Below are positions 16,107 through 25,027 of a stretch of DNA of 64,000 nt, piece by piece; positions within the stretch are counted from its first letter, which is position 1, and each line of letters begins with the position of its first letter. Source of the stretch: an uncultured Caulobacterales bacterium (GTDB lineage Bacteria; Pseudomonadota; Alphaproteobacteria; Caulobacterales; Caulobacteraceae); contig CAIMFV010000061.1 in the NCBI GenBank assembly GCA_903840435.1, positions 1 through 64,000 of the forward strand. The letters run 5' to 3'. Below the pieces are notes generated by a model that was not told the origin of the DNA, ran no database searches, and saw only the letters and a program-made list of their open reading frames with translations. Made by a program: the position numbers and the translations under genes.

Positions 16107-16679
16107 CTATCGAGGCATGGGACCAAAACGCTGATCCAGTGCGAGGTTGGTTTCAAGCACATTTACCCGAGGTTCGCCGATCACGCCGAGAAACCGGCCC
16201 CGAACATGACTTTCGACGAGGCTAGCCACAGCCCGGGGTGCCGCGTTGCGTGCTTTAGCGATCCGGTCGATTTGCAGCCGCGCAAATTCCGGTGAGATGT
16301 CTGGGTCGAGACCCGAGGCGGAGGCCGTCACGGCGTCGACCGGTACTGAGGCCCCCGCAACACCGAGCGCCTTTACCGAAGCCGCGATGCGCGTCTCAAG
16401 CTTCGGGTCGAGAGGCCCAAGATTGGCGCCTCCTGATTGGGTGGGGTCATAGCCGTCTCCCGCCGCCGACGGGCGAGGATGCAGATATTCTGGGCGAACA
16501 AAATTTTGGCCGATCAGAGCGGAACCGACCGGGCCGCGGGCCGTCGCGACCAGCGAGCCTTTCGCGCCATTCGGTGCGAGCCCAGCGGCGAGTGCTGTGA
16601 TGGCGAGCGGATAGATCAGGCCCAATAAGAGCGTGAAGGCGATCAGGGCGGTGATGGCGGGGCGAAAATGGCGAAGCAT
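16107..16679 (-). CDS. kdpC: Potassium-transporting ATPase subunit KdpC
   Basis: A 190-aa KdpC with a single N-terminal membrane segment (PAITALIAFTLLLGLIYPLA) and the conserved SALIGQNF, SGGANLGP-type and DPDISPEFA/RVNVLETN segments. KdpC bridges KdpA and KdpB in the high-affinity K+ pump. Length is typical. The gene is 40 nt downstream of kdpB and 12 nt before kdpD. Confidence 0.96.
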   Translation of the reverse strand: MLRHFRPAITALIAFTLLLGLIYPLAITALAAGLAPNGAKGSLVATARGPVGSALIGQNFVRPEYLHPRPSAAGDGYDPTQSGGANLGPLDPKLETRIAASVKALGVAGASVPVDAVTASASGLDPDISPEFARLQIDRIAKARNAAPRAVASLVESHVRGRFLGVIGEPRVNVLETNLALDQRFGPMPR

Positions 16680-16719: not shown

Positions 16720-18753
16720 TTAGGCGAGGCCGACGCTGCGGACTAAAAGATCGATCAGCTTGATGCCAATGAAGGGTGCGACCACCCCGCCAAGGCCATA
16801 GACGGCCAGATTGCGCGCCAACAAAGCATCAGCGCCAATGGGCTTATAGGCGACCCCCCGCAGGGCGAGCGGGATCAGGGCCACGATGACCAAGGCGTTG
16901 AAAATGACAGCCGAGAGGATGGCACTCTGCGGACTGCCCAGTCCCATAATGTTAAGCGCACCCAAAGCAGGTAAGGAGACCACGAACAGGGCCGGAATAA
17001 TGGCGAAATATTTGGCCACGTCATTGGCGATCGAGAAGGTGGTCAAGGCACCGCGTGTGATCAGCATTTGCTTGCCCACCTCAACAATCTCGATCACCTT
17101 GGTTGGGTCACTGTCGAGATCGACCATATTGCCAGCTTCGCGGGCGGCTTGGGCCCCGGTCTGCATGGCGACGCCGACATCGGCCTGGGCCAGGGCTGGT
17201 GCGTCATTGGCCCCGTCGCCGCACATGGCGACCAATCGGCCCTTGGCCTGTTCGTCGCGGATCAGGCGCAGCTTATCTTCAGGCGTCGCCTCGGCTAAAA
17301 AGTCATCAACTCCGGCTTCCGAAGCAATCGCCGCCGCCGTCACTGGATTGTCGCCGGTGATCATCACGGTGCGCAGACCCATGCGCCGCAAATCAGCGAA
17401 GCGCGCCTTCACGTTCGGCTTGACCACGTCTTTCAAGTGAATGACGCCCACGAGCCGCACGCCATCTGAGACCGCCAAGGGCGTCCCGCCGGATCGGGCG
17501 ATGCGATCCACGGCTGCGGACAATTCCGCCGGAGCCTGATGGCGCTCCAAGCCAATGTGGCGCAGGACTGCATCGACCGCGCCCTTGCGCCAAGAGCGCT
17601 CCCCGCGATCCAGGCCAGACAGCCGCGTTGCGGCGGAAAAGGGAATGGGGGTGGCGTCGGCGGGAATTTCAGCTGTGACGCCCTGGGCCTTGGCCAAATC
17701 GACAATCGAGCGCCCCTCCGGCGTCTCGTCGGCAAGCGAGGCCATCAAGGCTGCCAACAGGGCGGCCTCGGCGGGCATGCCGGGTGCGGCGATCACTTCC
17801 GTCGCCATACGGTTGCCAAAGGTGATGGTGCCGGTCTTGTCGAGCAGCAGCGTATCGACATCCCCTGCCGCCTCCACCGCCCGCCCCGATGTCGCCAAGA
17901 CATTGAATTTTAGCAGGCGGTCCATCCCGGCAATGCCGATGGCTGAAAGCAGCCCGCCAATGGTTGTCGGAATCAGACAGACGAAGAGCGCCCCCAAGAC
18001 GACCGGATCAAGGGTCACGCCCGAATAGGCTCCCAGACCCAAGAGGCTCGCCACCGCAATCAGGAAGATCAGACTGAGCCCGGCGAGGAGCACCGCCAGC
18101 GCCAGCTCATTGGGGGTTTTGCGGCGATCCGCGCCCTCGACCATGGCAATCATCCGGTCAAGAAAGCTCGAGCCCTGCTCAGCCGTCACCCGCACCTTGA
18201 TCCAGTCTGAGACTACGGTCGTGCCGCCGGTCACTGCTGAGCGGTCGCCGCCAGACTCGCGGATGACTGGAGCGCTTTCGCCGGTAATGGCGGCCTCGTT
18301 GACCGAAGCGACGCCTTCGATGATCTCGCCATCAGCGGGCACCATGTCGCCGGCCTCGACCAGCACGATATCGCCGATGGCAAGCTTATAGGCCGAGGTC
18401 GGGACCGTGGTTCCCGTCGCGGCGTCGATAATGAGTTTTGCCTTGGTGTCGACCCGTGCAGCGCGCAGAGCGTCGGCTGCTGCCTTGCCGCGCCCTTCGG
18501 CAACGCTTTCGGCAAAATTGGCGAAGAGGACAGTGACCCAGAGCCATCCGGCAATCTGGGCGCTGAACAGCACCGGACGATGGGCAATGCCGTCGGCAAT
18601 GGTGGAGAGGGTGGCGAGGACCGCGACCCCTTCCGTGGCAAGGATGACCGGATTGCCGGTCAAGCGGCGCGGATCAAGCTTGATGACCGACTCGGCCAAG
18701 GCCCGACCGATAAGGTCAAGGCGCGAACCGGAAGATGTAAAAAGGGTCGACAT
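16720..18753 (-). CDS. kdpB: Potassium-transporting P-type ATPase catalytic subunit KdpB
   Basis: A 677-aa type-IA P-type ATPase. Motifs: ITGESAPV in the actuator domain (the serine here is the inhibitory phosphorylation site known in E. coli), [11 protein letters not shown] with the phosphorylated Asp, [16 protein letters not shown] and [19 protein letters not shown] in the P domain. Membrane segments flank the actuator loop and close the C-terminus. It hydrolyses ATP to drive K+ uptake through KdpA. Start ATG 18753 (MSTLFTSSG) is 58 nt after kdpA. Confidence 0.97.
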
Positions 18754-18811: not shown

Positions 18812-20515
18812 TCAGCGTAGGGCGTTGAGCATTTGGAAGTGCTCGACCAAGGGTCCGAGCGCTAAGGCCGGGAAGAATTGCAGGCCACCCAAGATCAAGA
18901 TGACGCCGAGCAACAGGCCGACGAACAGCGGTGTATCGCTTCTCAATGTGCCAGCACTTTGGGCAAGTCTTGGCTTTTGCACCACGGCGCCCGCCAGGGC
19001 GATGACCGGGATGAGATAGCCGAACCGCCCGAGCATCATGTCGATGCCAAGGGTGAGGTTCCACCAGGGCGTATTGGCGTTCAGCCCCGCAAAGGCCGAG
19101 CCGTTATTCCCCGCGCCCGACGAATAGGCATAGAGGATCTCCGTCAAGCCATGCGGACCCGAAGCCGAAAGTCCTTTAAGCGCCATCGGCAGCACGGCGG
19201 CGACCGCTGTGAAGCCTAAGATCGCCAAGGGCAGGATGAGGACCGCCAGCATGGCGAACTTGATCTCGCGCGCCTCGACCTTTTTGCCGAGATATTCCGG
19301 CGTCCGACCTACCATGAGACCGGAGACAAACACCGCCAGCAAGGCCATGACCACAATGCCATAAAGCCCCGATCCGACCCCACCGGGCAGGATTTCACCG
19401 AGCTGGATCAAGAAGAGCGAGACGCCCCCGCCAAGCGGCGTAAAGCTCTCCATCAAGGCGTTGGTGGCCCCACAGGACGCGCCTGTGGTCATGGCGGCGA
19501 AGACGGCCGAGGCCGCCGTCCCAAATCGCACCTCCTTGCCCTCAAGATTGACAGCATGGGCAAGTCCTGAATGGACCAGAGCAGGTGTTGGCGAGGTTTC
19601 AGCCACATAGATCAGCCCAGCGGCAACTGAAAGCAAAACGCCCATGGCGACCACGAGCGCGGCCGCTTCCCGCTTCGCACCCGCCATGCGGCCAAAGGCG
19701 ATGACACAGCCAAAGGCCAGGGCGTTCATCGCCACCATGGCGATCAGATTGGTCAGCGGCGAGGGGTTCTCGAAAGGGTGGGCCGAATTGGCGTTGAAGA
19801 AGCCGCCGCCATTGGTGCCGATCTGCTTGATCGCTTCTTGGCTGGCGATGGGGCCAAGGGTCAGGGTTTGCTTGGCGCCTTCGAGGGTGGTGAGGTCGAG
19901 CCTCTGGACCAGGGTCTGCGGCACGCCTTGCAGGATGAGCGCAATCGCCATGACAATTGAGAGCGGCAAGAGGACGTAGAGGCTGACGCGCACCAGATCT
20001 CGCCAGAAATTGCCGAGCGCCTCGCCGCGATGGGCGCGAAAGGCGCGCGCCAGTACGCCGACCACAACAATGCCTGTCGCACCCGACATAAAGTTCTGCA
20101 CCGTCAAGCCAGTCATCTGGGTGAGATTGGTCAGGGCGGTCTCGCCCGAATAGGCCTGCCAGTTGGTGTTGGTGACGAAGCTAATCGCGGTATTAAAGGC
20201 AAGGTCAGGGGACAGGCCTGCCAATTTTAGGGGGTTCAACGGCAGCACACCCTGCCCGATCAAAATCAGAAACAGCAAAAGAAACCCAAGGCCGTTGAAG
20301 ACGAGCAGCGAGGCGGTATAGGCGAGCCACCCCTGTTCGGTTTCCGTCTCAGGTCCAAGCCCTTTCAATATCCCACGCTCAAGCGGGGCCAGACTTCGTA
20401 ACCCCGCCACGGGTTTCCCCTCCAGCGCTTGGGCGATCACCCACCCAAGCGGCCAGGCGAGCCCAATCGCCAATGCGAGCGTTAGGGCGATCTCCGCCCA
20501 ACCTTGCCATGTCAT
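18812..20515 (-). CDS. kdpA: Potassium-transporting ATPase channel subunit KdpA
   Basis: A 567-aa member of the superfamily of K+ transporters that forms the selectivity filter of the Kdp pump. The four filter-like repeats are visible: [54 protein letters not shown] and [14 protein letters not shown]. About ten membrane segments are expected and consistent with the hydrophobic pattern. Start ATG 20515 ([11 protein letters not shown]) lies 15 nt after the kdpF stop. Confidence 0.97.
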
Positions 20516-20530
20516 GGAGATGTTTCCGGT

Positions 20531-20617
20531 TCAGAACCGCTCGGGACGCAGCAGCGCCCAGAGCAAATAGACGGCAAGCCCAAGCGCCGCCGCCGCATAG
20601 ATGAGGTGCAAGGCCAT
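20531..20617 (-). CDS. kdpF: Potassium-transporting ATPase subunit KdpF
   Basis: A 28-aa single-span peptide, MALHLIYAAAALGLAVYLL followed by WALLRPERF. The L-L-R-P-E-R-F ending is the family signature of KdpF, the small lipid-like stabiliser of KdpABC. It starts one nucleotide after the stop of the upstream 26-aa ORF (TGACATG), implying translational re-initiation, and has no strong ribosome binding site of its own. Placed immediately before kdpA, as usual. Confidence 0.9.
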   Translation of the reverse strand: MALHLIYAAAALGLAVYLLWALLRPERF

Positions 20618-20618
20618 G

Positions 20619-20699
20619 TCAGACGCGCCGCAACAGGGACGCGTAGAGCCCAAAGGCCGCGAACAGCGCCAAGCCTCCGACGAGATACGCAAAAACCAT
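20619..20699 (-). CDS. 26-aa hydrophobic peptide preceding kdpF
   Basis: A short ORF beginning MVFAYLVGGLALFAAFGLY and ending ASLLRRV: one predicted membrane span with a basic C-terminus. It has the best ribosome binding site of the operon (GGAGG, 6 nt before ATG 20699), while kdpF has none. It ends 1 nt before the kdpF ATG, so its translation probably feeds kdpF. The pattern G-L-x(2 or 3)-Y-x-x-x-L-L-R recalls KdpF itself, so it may be a diverged KdpF duplicate. Alternatively it is a leader peptide whose role is coupling. No family name is known to me. Confidence 0.6.
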   Translation of the reverse strand: MVFAYLVGGLALFAAFGLYASLLRRV

Positions 20700-20704
20700 A
20701 GCAA

Positions 20705-20726
20705 GCCTCCAGGATCGAGGTCCTGG
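20705..20726 (-). promoter_or_regulatory. Shine-Dalgarno of the kdp leader ORF, overlapped by a hairpin
   Basis: The minus strand carries CCAGGA-(6 nt)-TCCTGG (20726-20709) immediately before GGAGG (20710-20706). The last two bases of the stem are the first two of the Shine-Dalgarno, so the 6-bp hairpin could limit ribosome access. Function is inferred only. Confidence 0.4.
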
Positions 20727-20775
20727 GATTAGGCGCTCACGGCATAAAGGCGCTACCGGCGCTTAGGCGCACGGA

Positions 20776-20846: not shown

Positions 20847-22358
20847 TTAGACCGCGCCGGTCGGCGTGACGGTTGGGGCGGGCGCCCCCGGATCTCCGGC
20901 TGGATTTCGGCCCTTGGCAAAACGCATCACACCATCTTCGAGCTTGCCAAACCGGAAGGCCAAAAGATCCAGCGCGTAGTTCTGGTAAACCTTCCACGGC
21001 GCGGTCGTGCCCTGCTTGGGCCAGGCCGCCATGGCACGTTGGACATAGCCTGAGGAGAAGTCGAGCCAGGGCGCGGGCGCCAGATTGGGGTCGTCATTGA
21101 CCGGGCGACATTCGCGCAAGCCATGGCGATCCATATGGCGCATCAAGCGGCAAATATATTCCGCCGTCAGGTCCGCCTTCAGGGTCCACGAGGCGTTGGT
21201 ATAGCCAAAGGTTGAGGACAGGTTGGGCACGCCCGAATACATGATGCCCTTATAGCTAAAGGTGTCGCTCAAGATCAGCGGCACGCCATCCATGGACAAT
21301 TGGACACCGTGCATCAGTTTCATATCAAGCCCTGTGGCCGTGACCACCACATCGGCCTCTAAGGTCGCGCCAGATTTCAATACCAGTCCGGTTTCGTTGA
21401 AGCTGGCAATCTCATCCGTGACAATGGACGCTGTGCCCTTTGACAGGGCTTCAAACATATCTGCGTCGGGGACGAGGCAAAGCCGCTGGTCCCAAGGATT
21501 GTAGCGGGGCGTGAGATGGGTCGCGACGTCAAAATCTGGCGGAAGCAAGGGCCGCAGCCGCTCGAGCAAGGCCTCCTTGGTCTTTTGCGGATGTTTGCGC
21601 GTCACATTGTAGAAATAGAGCTGGAGAAAGACGTTGCGCCAGCGGATCAAGTCATAAGCGAGCTTGCTCGGCAGAATCTTGCGCAACACATTGGCGAACC
21701 GATCCTCTGCCGGGCGCGACACCATATAGGTCGGCGAGCGTTGCAACATGGTCACGTGGGCGGCGCTCTGGGCCATGGCGGGCACGAGCGTCACCGCCGT
21801 GGCGCCTGAGCCGATCACCACAACCCGTTTGCCGCTATAGTCGAGGTCTTGCGGCCAGTGCTGCGGATGGATGATGCGCCCGCGAAACTGCGCCTCGCCG
21901 GGGAATTCGGGGCGATAGCCCTGCTCATAATTATAATAGCCGGAGCACATGTGCAGGAAGTTGCAGGCGACTTGGCGCGCCTCCGCCTCGCCCTCGACCC
22001 GATAGGTGACAATCCATTGGGAGCGTCGACTATCCCAGGCCGCTGCTTCGACGCGATGGCCGGTACGAATGTGGCGGTCGATCTTGTAGGCCTTGGCCGT
22101 GTCTTGCAGGTAGCGCAAGATGTCTGGACCGTCAGCAATGGCCTTGGCCTCTTTCCAGGGACGAAATGCAAAGCCCAAGGTGTACATGTCCGAATCGGAC
22201 CGAACGCCGGGATAGCGAAACAGGTCCCACGTCCCCCCCAGTTGCGACCGCCCTTCAAAAATGGCGTAGGTGCGACCAGGGCACTGGGCTTGCAAATAAT
22301 AGCCCGCGCCAATTCCAGACAGGCCTGCGCCGACAACGAGAACGTCCAACTCTTCCAT
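20847..22358 (-). CDS. Flavin-containing monooxygenase, Baeyer-Villiger type
   Basis: A 503-aa NAD(P)H/FAD monooxygenase. The FAD Rossmann motif is VVGAGLSGIGAGYYL near residue 8, the NADP motif VVIGSGATAVTLVPAMA near 180, and between them the Baeyer-Villiger fingerprint F-x-G-x3-H-x3-W-P is intact as FRGRIIHPQHWP. Such enzymes insert oxygen next to ketones or oxidise soft heteroatoms. The substrate is unknown. It is transcribed away from kdp's promoter region (same strand, upstream) and has no obvious metabolic partner beside it. Confidence 0.88.
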   Translation of the reverse strand: MEELDVLVVGAGLSGIGAGYYLQAQCPGRTYAIFEGRSQLGGTWDLFRYPGVRSDSDMYTLGFAFRPWKEAKAIADGPDILRYLQDTAKAYKIDRHIRTGHRVEAAAWDSRRSQWIVTYRVEGEAEARQVACNFLHMCSGYYNYEQGYRPEFPGEAQFRGRIIHPQHWPQDLDYSGKRVVVIGSGATAVTLVPAMAQSAAHVTMLQRSPTYMVSRPAEDRFANVLRKILPSKLAYDLIRWRNVFLQLYFYNVTRKHPQKTKEALLERLRPLLPPDFDVATHLTPRYNPWDQRLCLVPDADMFEALSKGTASIVTDEIASFNETGLVLKSGATLEADVVVTATGLDMKLMHGVQLSMDGVPLILSDTFSYKGIMYSGVPNLSSTFGYTNASWTLKADLTAEYICRLMRHMDRHGLRECRPVNDDPNLAPAPWLDFSSGYVQRAMAAWPKQGTTAPWKVYQNYALDLLAFRFGKLEDGVMRFAKGRNPAGDPGAPAPTVTPTGAV

Positions 22359-22447: not shown

Positions 22448-25027
22448 TTAGCCCGCGACACCGCGTTCAACGGGCTCTGCGTCCGTGTCGCTATAGGTCC
22501 ATTTTGTCAGGGCCTCAGCGAGCGCAATGATTGTCACCGGCTTAGCCACATGGTCGCTCATCCCAGCGGCGAGGCAGCGATGGATGTCGTCTTGCGATGC
22601 GTCGGCGGTAATGGCGATAATGGGAATATTGGCGTTCGGGCCGCCGCCCCGCCGGATCAGGCCTGTGGCTTGCAGTCCATCGACCTCGGGCATTTGAACG
22701 TCCATCAGGATCAAATCAAATCGCCGAACCGTAGCCAATTCGACAGCATGGGCACCGCCGCGCGCCTCGGTACACTCAAAGCCAAGCGCTTTGAGGAGGG
22801 TGCGGAACAGGTCGCGGTTTTCCTGCCGGTCATCGACGAGCAAGATCTGCAGGTCGCCAGAGTCGATATGGGTCGGCGGAACGGAGGCCGGCGCCGTTGT
22901 CGCTTCCGGTGCATCTTCAGAGGCGGGCGCGGCAACTTCAAAGCTGAACTCCGCCCCTTGGCCGAGTTGAGAGACCACCCGCACCTCACCGCCCATGCGT
23001 TCGACCAGACTTTTGACGATGGCAAGGCCAAGTCCAGTGCCGCCAAAGCGGCGATTGACCGCACCGTCAGCTTGGGTAAAGCGCTCGAACAACCGATCGA
23101 TCTTGTCAGGCGCGATGCCGCAACCCGAATCCTTAACGGCAATGGCCAAGCGACCCGCCTCGCTCAGATAGCGCACGGTCACCCTGACCTCGCCCTCCGA
23201 CGTGAATTTGACGGCATTGTTGAGGAGGTTGAGCAAGACCTGAACCAAACGCGAGCTATCGCCCAGCACCGCACGCGGCAAGACGCCATCGACCGAGAGA
23301 TGGAGGTCGAGCCCCTTGGCCTTGGCCGAAACCTCTGCCAGTCCGACCGCTCGCGCCGTCACCTCCATCGGATCGTAGGGGTGCGGGTCAAGGACGACCT
23401 GGCCCGCTTCAAGCTTGGAGAAATCCAAGATCTCATTGACCACCCACAAAAGCGCTTCGCCGCCATCGCGGATACGCCGGATCTGTCCGCGAATTTCATC
23501 GGAAAGTTCGCCCCTCGCCGATAACAGATCGGCATAGCCGATGACGGTCGTCAAAGGCGTGCGAATTTCGTGGCTCATATTGGAAAGAAACTCGGCCTTG
23601 GCGACGCTGGCGGCTTCCGCCTTGGCTTGGGCCGAACGGAGCTTCACCACCAAGCGCCGCTGGAGGAAGATCATAATCCCCGCGCCGAGCACCAAGAGCG
23701 CAGCAAGTCCGATGACAAAGGTTTGGCCCCGCTCCACCTGCTCGCGCAGTTCCAGATTGCGCCCAAACTCGTCAGAGACCTCTCTCACAGCGGCGCGCAC
23801 GCGCTGGGCGGAATCGATGGAGGTGGCATTGACGAGCTTGTCGATTTTGGCGGCAGCTTCCGCCACCTTGCCTTGGTCGGACAGCACAGCGGCTTCGAGC
23901 ACCGGAAGTCTGCGGAACGCGTTGGGTGGAATATCGCCCTTCGCCTTCATGCGCTGCAAAATCTCAAGGTCACGGCGAGCGAGGTCCATGTGGCCCAGCT
24001 CAGCATTGGCGATGCCTCGAACGAAAAACAGCTCAGTGCTCGGCTTTCCGAGCGCTTCAAGGTCCTTCGGCAATTGCGGATTATCAAAGCACTTCAAGGC
24101 CGATTGTGGCGTGCCGAAGACGTTTTCCACCCGCGCGCAAAGTCGGGCAGCATAGATGACAGAGGTAAGGTCCCCCTCCCGCTGTGCCATAGCGAGGTAG
24201 CGCTCTTCGATTTCGCGCGCCACTTTTTCGTCGCCAACCGCGATCTCGACCCAGGACATGTCAAAGACGTCTTGGCTGTCTGCCAAGGGAAAGCCCAAGG
24301 AGAGATAGCTATCAGTTTCGCGCTTCAGCATGCGCGCTGCGTTGACCACTTCCGAGTGATAGAGAAGTTCAAAGGCCCTTACGTCATCGACAGTGGCAAG
24401 GGTCATCATGCCTTCAATGTCGTGATTGGGGACCAGGGCTTCGGCCTTGGCGGCATAGGTCATGGCGTCGACCATGTTCCCGTGCGCCACAAACACCTCG
24501 GCGCGCCATAATAGGGCGTGGGCCTTCAAGTACCAATCTGAATTCACCGCCTCCATCGCCTTCAGGCGCCCATCGGCGGCCGGGTCGCCATGGAGCCACT
24601 TGACGACATCGCGATCATATTTGGCCACCGCGACGTATCGGGCTGAACCTTCGGCCGTGGCGACCTTCAAAAGAGCGTCATTCCACCGCCCAAAACCAGC
24701 AGCGTCTTCACGCTGAAGATAAACCTCTGCGGCATATTGCAGCCGCACATATTTGGAAATTCCCGACAGGGTCAGGGCCTTGGCGCCAAATTCTTCGACG
24801 GCCTTGGGGAAGGGAGTCGCCTCATTCGTGGCGATCAGCTTGTCGACAATGTCGGTAATTTCTTTGTCGGAGGTGTCCTGGGGCGCCGTTTGAGGGGCGG
24901 CCGCAAAAGCTGGCCCGTGAAGGCTAATGGCCAGCGTGCACGCGCAGATCATCACGGAGCTTCGCAAGACATTGCCCGCAATAAGCGCTTGGAATTTAGA
25001 CGCAGCGCGCGGACCGAATACCGGCAT
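22448..25027 (-). CDS. Hybrid histidine kinase/response regulator with periplasmic TPR-like sensor
   Basis: An 859-aa membrane kinase. Residues 1-45 carry a signal/anchor (VMICACTLAISLHGPAFAAA). Residues ~50-410 are an all-helical repeat region of TPR character facing the periplasm. A membrane span FVIGLAALLVLGAGIMIFL lies near 435-455. The HisKA site is SNMSHEIRTPLTTVIGYADL (His near 485), followed by a HATPase with NLLNNAVKF, DSGCGIAPDKI and GTGLGLAIVKSLVERMGG. The C-terminal receiver has LLVDDRQENRDL and LILMDVQMPEVDG. No output regulator is adjacent, so it is an orphan kinase. Stimulus unknown. Confidence 0.9.
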   Translation of the reverse strand: MPVFGPRAASKFQALIAGNVLRSSVMICACTLAISLHGPAFAAAPQTAPQDTSDKEITDIVDKLIATNEATPFPKAVEEFGAKALTLSGISKYVRLQYAAEVYLQREDAAGFGRWNDALLKVATAEGSARYVAVAKYDRDVVKWLHGDPAADGRLKAMEAVNSDWYLKAHALLWRAEVFVAHGNMVDAMTYAAKAEALVPNHDIEGMMTLATVDDVRAFELLYHSEVVNAARMLKRETDSYLSLGFPLADSQDVFDMSWVEIAVGDEKVAREIEERYLAMAQREGDLTSVIYAARLCARVENVFGTPQSALKCFDNPQLPKDLEALGKPSTELFFVRGIANAELGHMDLARRDLEILQRMKAKGDIPPNAFRRLPVLEAAVLSDQGKVAEAAAKIDKLVNATSIDSAQRVRAAVREVSDEFGRNLELREQVERGQTFVIGLAALLVLGAGIMIFLQRRLVVKLRSAQAKAEAASVAKAEFLSNMSHEIRTPLTTVIGYADLLSARGELSDEIRGQIRRIRDGGEALLWVVNEILDFSKLEAGQVVLDPHPYDPMEVTARAVGLAEVSAKAKGLDLHLSVDGVLPRAVLGDSSRLVQVLLNLLNNAVKFTSEGEVRVTVRYLSEAGRLAIAVKDSGCGIAPDKIDRLFERFTQADGAVNRRFGGTGLGLAIVKSLVERMGGEVRVVSQLGQGAEFSFEVAAPASEDAPEATTAPASVPPTHIDSGDLQILLVDDRQENRDLFRTLLKALGFECTEARGGAHAVELATVRRFDLILMDVQMPEVDGLQATGLIRRGGGPNANIPIIAITADASQDDIHRCLAAGMSDHVAKPVTIIALAEALTKWTYSDTDAEPVERGVAG

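Follow-up and report, generated by a model that had tools for sequence, protein, structure and literature searches.

A small open reading frame in front of kdpF probably encodes a second single-pass membrane peptide of the Kdp pump

Kdp is the textbook high-affinity K+ uptake system and a P-type ATPase, described as the four-subunit complex KdpFABC. Among other P-type ATPases, phospholamban and sarcolipin are known as single-helix partners (PMC10654040). They resemble the peptide reported here in being one-helix peptides dedicated to a P-type pump; the comparison is an analogy only, in which sequence relation plays no part, and their partners are animal P2A pumps. For Kdp itself, the entries found in the PDB through the KdpA sequence all contained KdpA chains of 557 residues that fall into three nearly identical versions; we take these entries to be the E. 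coli complex (PMC10654040; PMC6255902). Upstream of kdpF, a 5' UTR of 120 nt in Mycobacterium smegmatis (PMC5401905) and a leader of about 100 nt in Caulobacter crescentus (PMC8552747) were both treated as untranslated. A literature search, outside which many subscription papers lay, found no paper reporting an additional Kdp gene or a small ORF.

The window analyzed here is a stretch of 64,000 nt from an uncultured member of the Caulobacteraceae. On its minus strand, a kdp operon is preceded by a further tiny ORF:

20619..20699, minus strand: small ORF, 26 aa, MVFAYLVGGLALFAAFGLYASLLRRV, proposed as a second Kdp protein with one helix (ORF reading, homologues upstream of kdpF in relatives, pN/pS 0.35)
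20706..20710, minus strand: Shine-Dalgarno sequence GGAGG, 6 nt 5' of the small-ORF ATG
20531..20617, minus strand: kdpF, 28 aa, MALHLIYAAAALGLAVYLLWALLRPERF (PF09604 35 bits, cut-off 21.2; TIGR02115 31.4 bits)
18812..20515, minus strand: kdpA, K+-channel-like subunit (PF03814 733 bits, TIGR00680 684 bits)
16720..18753, minus strand: kdpB, P-type ATPase subunit (TIGR01497 963 bits)
16107..16679, minus strand: kdpC, start ATG CTT CGC CAT (read by eye; family from the position after kdpB and inspection)

The span 20531-20699 thus consists of two tiny ORFs, the small ORF and kdpF. The initial annotation had described a 26-codon ORF with GGAGG-N6-ATG that ends TGA-C-ATG into kdpF, and this was borne out by the sequence and by the Pfam KdpF match. 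The start context is CCTGGAGGCTTGCT followed by ATG, and the end reads ...CGCGTC TGA C ATG, where the ATG at 20617 is the kdpF start after a gap of 1 nt. At this kdpF start, no stretch of at least three bases between -18 and -4 matched the Shine-Dalgarno core. A sigma-70 promoter scan yielded nothing useful.

KdpA was present in 208 of 390 Caulobacteraceae genomes (KdpA search), and all 68 kdp loci examined in this family carried an ORF of 26-28 residues directly 5' of kdpF, at a spacing of -4 to +5 nt. Across these loci, pN/pS was 0.35 for the small ORF (Nei-Gojobori counts over its 24 C-terminal codons) and 0.40 for kdpF; the column-shuffled null averaged 0.91 and never fell below 0.64 (60 draws). 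In 22 non-overlapping pairs, pN/pS was 0.27, and the differences at codon positions 1, 2 and 3 numbered 53, 31 and 106, respectively (p 6e-11). Selection acts on the small-ORF peptide itself. The initial annotation had allowed that frame and amino-acid pattern might be unconserved in relatives, and the opposite was found. Because frame and amino-acid pattern are kept in relatives, substitution is biased by codon position and the placement is retained, the small ORF is not a chance reading frame. What is selected has the character of a membrane-spanning protein, with a hydrophobic stretch of about 17 residues in family members, in agreement with the single hydrophobic span noted at first.

The members, mostly 26-34 aa in size, share the 27-residue pattern M-x-D-h6-G-x3-F-x5-Y-x3-C-[DE]-R-L. 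The consensus of 152 members was M-[ML]-D-L-I-F-L-A-L-G-L-G-F-F-A-L-L-A-A-Y-A-R-A-C-[DE]-R-L, with Asp3 in 134, Phe14 in 118 and Arg/Lys26 in 125 of them; the window copy is without the common Asp (consensus position 3) and Cys (24). Charge was biased along the peptide, with a K/R count of 0.05 in the first six residues versus 1.85 beyond residue 20. The conserved residues showed no significant helical face or periodicity (permutation p 0.24).

Among 80 named kdpA loci, mostly from Hyphomicrobiales, Caulobacterales, Acetobacteraceae and Sphingomonadales, an automated adjacency scan placed the small ORF 5' of kdpF in 78. The scan missed it in L060, where it sits farther upstream (MWDFIVVAIGVVSFGLFYAYTLGCDRL, 44.5 bits), and in L047, where the matching frame is intact with the start codon ATA (AGAAGGA-ACCATTC-ATA TTT GAC), which could be a rare start codon or a base error in the MAG. 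For L110, which is among the 78, the scan picked up a chance ORF, and the true copy lies farther upstream. In this Thermomicrobiales MAG (L110 / L272), the family member (MDDVVLLTLTVGSFVLMLLYVAACERLR, 37 bits) is located about 300 nt 5' of kdpF, with other sequence between. A 50-member profile searched against 398 Pseudomonadota genomes gave 50 matches at E<=1e-3, and in all 50 cases a kdpA match began 51-401 nt downstream; significant matches hence occurred only beside kdp structural genes.

Reading upstream of KdpA also revealed the small ORF in many beta- and gammaproteobacterial groups, in a form of the MDxxYLxLxxxFF...LRRR type. A loose scan of other phyla found an ORF in 28 of 30 loci of one phylum and 19 of 24 of another, counts that include chance ORFs at L289 and L290 (phylum of L107) and at L272 (phylum of L110; true copy about 300 nt farther upstream). 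The small ORF is thereby present in the phylum of a Thermomicrobiales MAG and in that of a Coriobacteriia MAG. The ORFs picked by the scan in L154, L272, L289 and L290 were not trusted, and a 'Verrucomicrobia' MAG (L059), whose phylum search gave the Pseudomonadota set, was counted under Pseudomonadota. Since the loose positional scan had a false rate of 16% on shuffled sequence, the case rests on HMM scores and selection. Several Chloroflexota- and Actinomycetota-type ORFs scored 25-40 bits with an HMM built almost wholly from alphaproteobacterial members; for the shortest members (e.g. Mycobacterium-like, about 9 bits), deep-phylum homology rests mainly on position. Judged from these sequences, the range takes in Alphaproteobacteria, beta- and gammaproteobacteria, a Thermomicrobiota/Chloroflexota-type phylum, Actinomycetota and Deinococcus. 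Named carriers were Streptomyces, Rhodococcus, Deinococcus radiodurans, Azospirillum and Sinorhizobium fredii, together with plasmid records of Mycetohabitans and Caballeronia. In the upstream regions examined, the small ORF was absent from E. coli, Halobacterium and Lactiplantibacillus, as well as from groups with Enterobacterales-like KdpF (f49, 0/5) and Pseudomonas-like KdpF (f44, 0/7) and from group f46 (0/2). A tblastn search of plasmids with a rhizobial 27-mer gave zero matches, which indicates that short BLAST queries are too insensitive.

No family in Pfam, NCBIfam or PHROGs corresponded to the small ORF, and solved structures in the PDB contained no homologue, only weak chance matches. 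In RefSeq, a few Burkholderiaceae copies (e.g. WP_191287747.1, Mycetohabitans rhizoxinica) bear the label 'potassium ABC transporter ATPase'. These microproteins, too, lie directly 5' of kdpF and have about 70% identity to a small-ORF family member, and on this likeness we assign them to the family. The label is a misnomer, since no peptide of 34 residues can be an ABC transporter or an ATPase, and the records attach only this wrong name, with no function or family model. The statement that such ORFs are usually missed by gene callers held for most of the records examined, which omit the small ORF, but not for some Mycetohabitans records, which annotate it under the wrong name. A model of the family would allow simple annotation of many missed genes. 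In relatives, the small ORF starts about 80-86 nt before kdpF and would fill the published 5' UTRs of M. smegmatis and C. crescentus; from this position we infer that it occupies both and that a gene may lie in each of these supposedly untranslated stretches.

We consider it probable that the small ORF is a real protein-coding gene and that its product is a second membrane microprotein dedicated to the Kdp K+ pump, crossing the membrane once and most likely packing against KdpA/KdpB, where it would stabilize or tune the pump. Of the three readings offered by the initial annotation, a new Kdp accessory subunit was the best supported, as frame and residues are kept, every significant match is linked to kdp and several phyla are represented; we infer its association with the complex, as we do its translation, membrane topology and effect on the pump. 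The small ORF would be translated first on the kdp mRNA, and in Caulobacteraceae kdpF translation would be coupled to it. Its peptide would insert as one helix, probably with the N-terminus out and the C-terminus in, as suggested by the acidic N-end and basic C-end, and would pack there in the manner of KdpF, as a second accessory helix serving the pump either as a subunit or as a regulator. The peptide is not mechanistically essential in general, since E. coli Kdp works without a counterpart; E. coli KdpFABC would be a reduced version from which it was lost. If this reading is true, an extra conserved membrane peptide exists in several phyla and the E. coli complex is not representative, and the peptide would offer a fresh way to study what holds or tunes the channel-like KdpA and the pump KdpB together.

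A different account makes the peptide irrelevant, with the Shine-Dalgarno sequence and frame serving only to recruit ribosomes for re-initiation at kdpF by translational coupling. The window fits it well, as the Shine-Dalgarno sequence is on the first ORF alone and the ORFs are 1 nt apart; overlap or tight spacing is also common elsewhere, the commonest arrangement being a 4-nt overlap of the small ORF with kdpF (41 of about 154). However, among 159 loci a Shine-Dalgarno core of at least four bases preceded 126 small ORFs and 128 kdpF genes. Because most kdpF genes have their own core, the window case is a local arrangement, and the remark that kdpF lacks a Shine-Dalgarno sequence holds in the window but not generally. 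In two genomes of one group, L172 (G470) and L182 (G582), whose small ORFs score 21.8 and 31 bits with the profile, the order is kdpF - small ORF - kdpA, so the small ORF is not merely the leader of kdpF. Separations from kdpF of 30-50 nt in several Chloroflexota-type loci and of about 300 nt in the Thermomicrobiales locus, purifying selection at the amino-acid level and a residue pattern retained across several phyla likewise argue against an irrelevant peptide, and we regard that account as unlikely. The initial claim that the ORF is at minimum a coupling leader was therefore contradicted as a sole role; coupling of the window type is plausible, yet not the reason that the gene exists; in Caulobacteraceae it may well be a further function of the small ORF. 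An RNA element or riboswitch was rejected as a candidate: an Rfam search gave no match at the small ORF and the RNA fold z-score was only -0.97, so that there is no sign of an RNA element in its place. Taken with the conservation of the peptide, the same two results do not fit a leader peptide or attenuator.

Tiny membrane peptides such as MgrB and MgtR act as regulators, and regulators of this style are often tiny, single-helix products of a first gene. The small ORF, as the first gene of its operon and the source of a tiny, single-helix peptide, could accordingly be thought to act elsewhere in the kdp regulon, on the sensor KdpD or on a protease acting on Kdp, instead of being a pump subunit. 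The strict linkage to kdpFA fits a partner of the pump better, and we hold such a regulator to be improbable, to the same degree as a bare leader.

The small ORF resembles KdpF in several respects: the same operon, a similar size (KdpF is about 29 aa), one hydrophobic span, an acidic N-end and basic C-end, and frequent omission from annotation. It differs in its conserved residues, M-x-D ... G ... F ... Y ... C-[DE]-R-L versus ... Y-L-x2-A-L-x-[RK]-P-E-[RK]-F in KdpF, in the lack of a profile match in either direction and in being a separate gene beside kdpF that E. coli does not have. The initial annotation had proposed a diverged KdpF duplicate, that is, a tandem paralogue occupying a second similar site in the pump. 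Matching size, helix number and charge-based orientation in a neighboring gene agree with this, as did an hhalign probability of 46% with small alignments, which none of 60 permuted controls reached. This weak signal vanished with broad alignments (152 and 180 sequences), for which the probability was 3% and 64 of 150 column-permuted controls were equally good, and KdpF paralogy is thus not supported. Neither PF09604 nor TIGR02115 matched the window small ORF at E<=10 or 50 family members at E<=1, loci that have only KdpF scored no higher than about 4.5 bits against the small-ORF HMM, and the peptide ends in C-[DE]-[RK]-L without the RPE(R/K)F end. On this evidence the small ORF does not appear to be a KdpF duplicate, an origin we judge very unlikely.

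The history of the small ORF was followed on a KdpA tree of 135 rows, a quick tree under a simple model with the root not inferred. Presence and absence required 6 changes, compared with 30.7 when labels were shuffled. Enterobacterales-type rows, including E. coli, were nested inside the carrier clade, which under this unrooted arrangement suggests that the E. coli lineage lost the small ORF. In 20 genomes without the small ORF, a search for a relocated or second copy reaching about 6 kb from kdp gave only noise (<=7.7 bits). The KdpA proteins of L172 and L182 grouped with Deinococcus, which suggests operon transfer for these two loci. A more far-reaching reading is that the ancestral bacterial Kdp had five subunits, among them two distinct single-helix peptides, one of which was lost by E. 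coli and Pseudomonas types, so that structural and mechanistic work would all have addressed a reduced complex; we put this forward tentatively, as falling somewhat short of an even chance.

Directly 5' of the kdp operon and on the same strand, the window contains a gene for a flavin-dependent (FMO / Baeyer-Villiger-like) monooxygenase (20847-22358, minus strand). At 22448-25027 (minus strand) there is a gene for a hybrid histidine kinase of 859 aa, which carries a receiver domain at its C-terminus and has weak TPR-like matches at its N-terminus. Just before the small-ORF GGAGG and overlapping it, an inverted repeat, CCAGGA-CCTCGA-TCCTGG, spans 20708-20728 (minus strand) and could hide the ribosome site of the small ORF in the mRNA.
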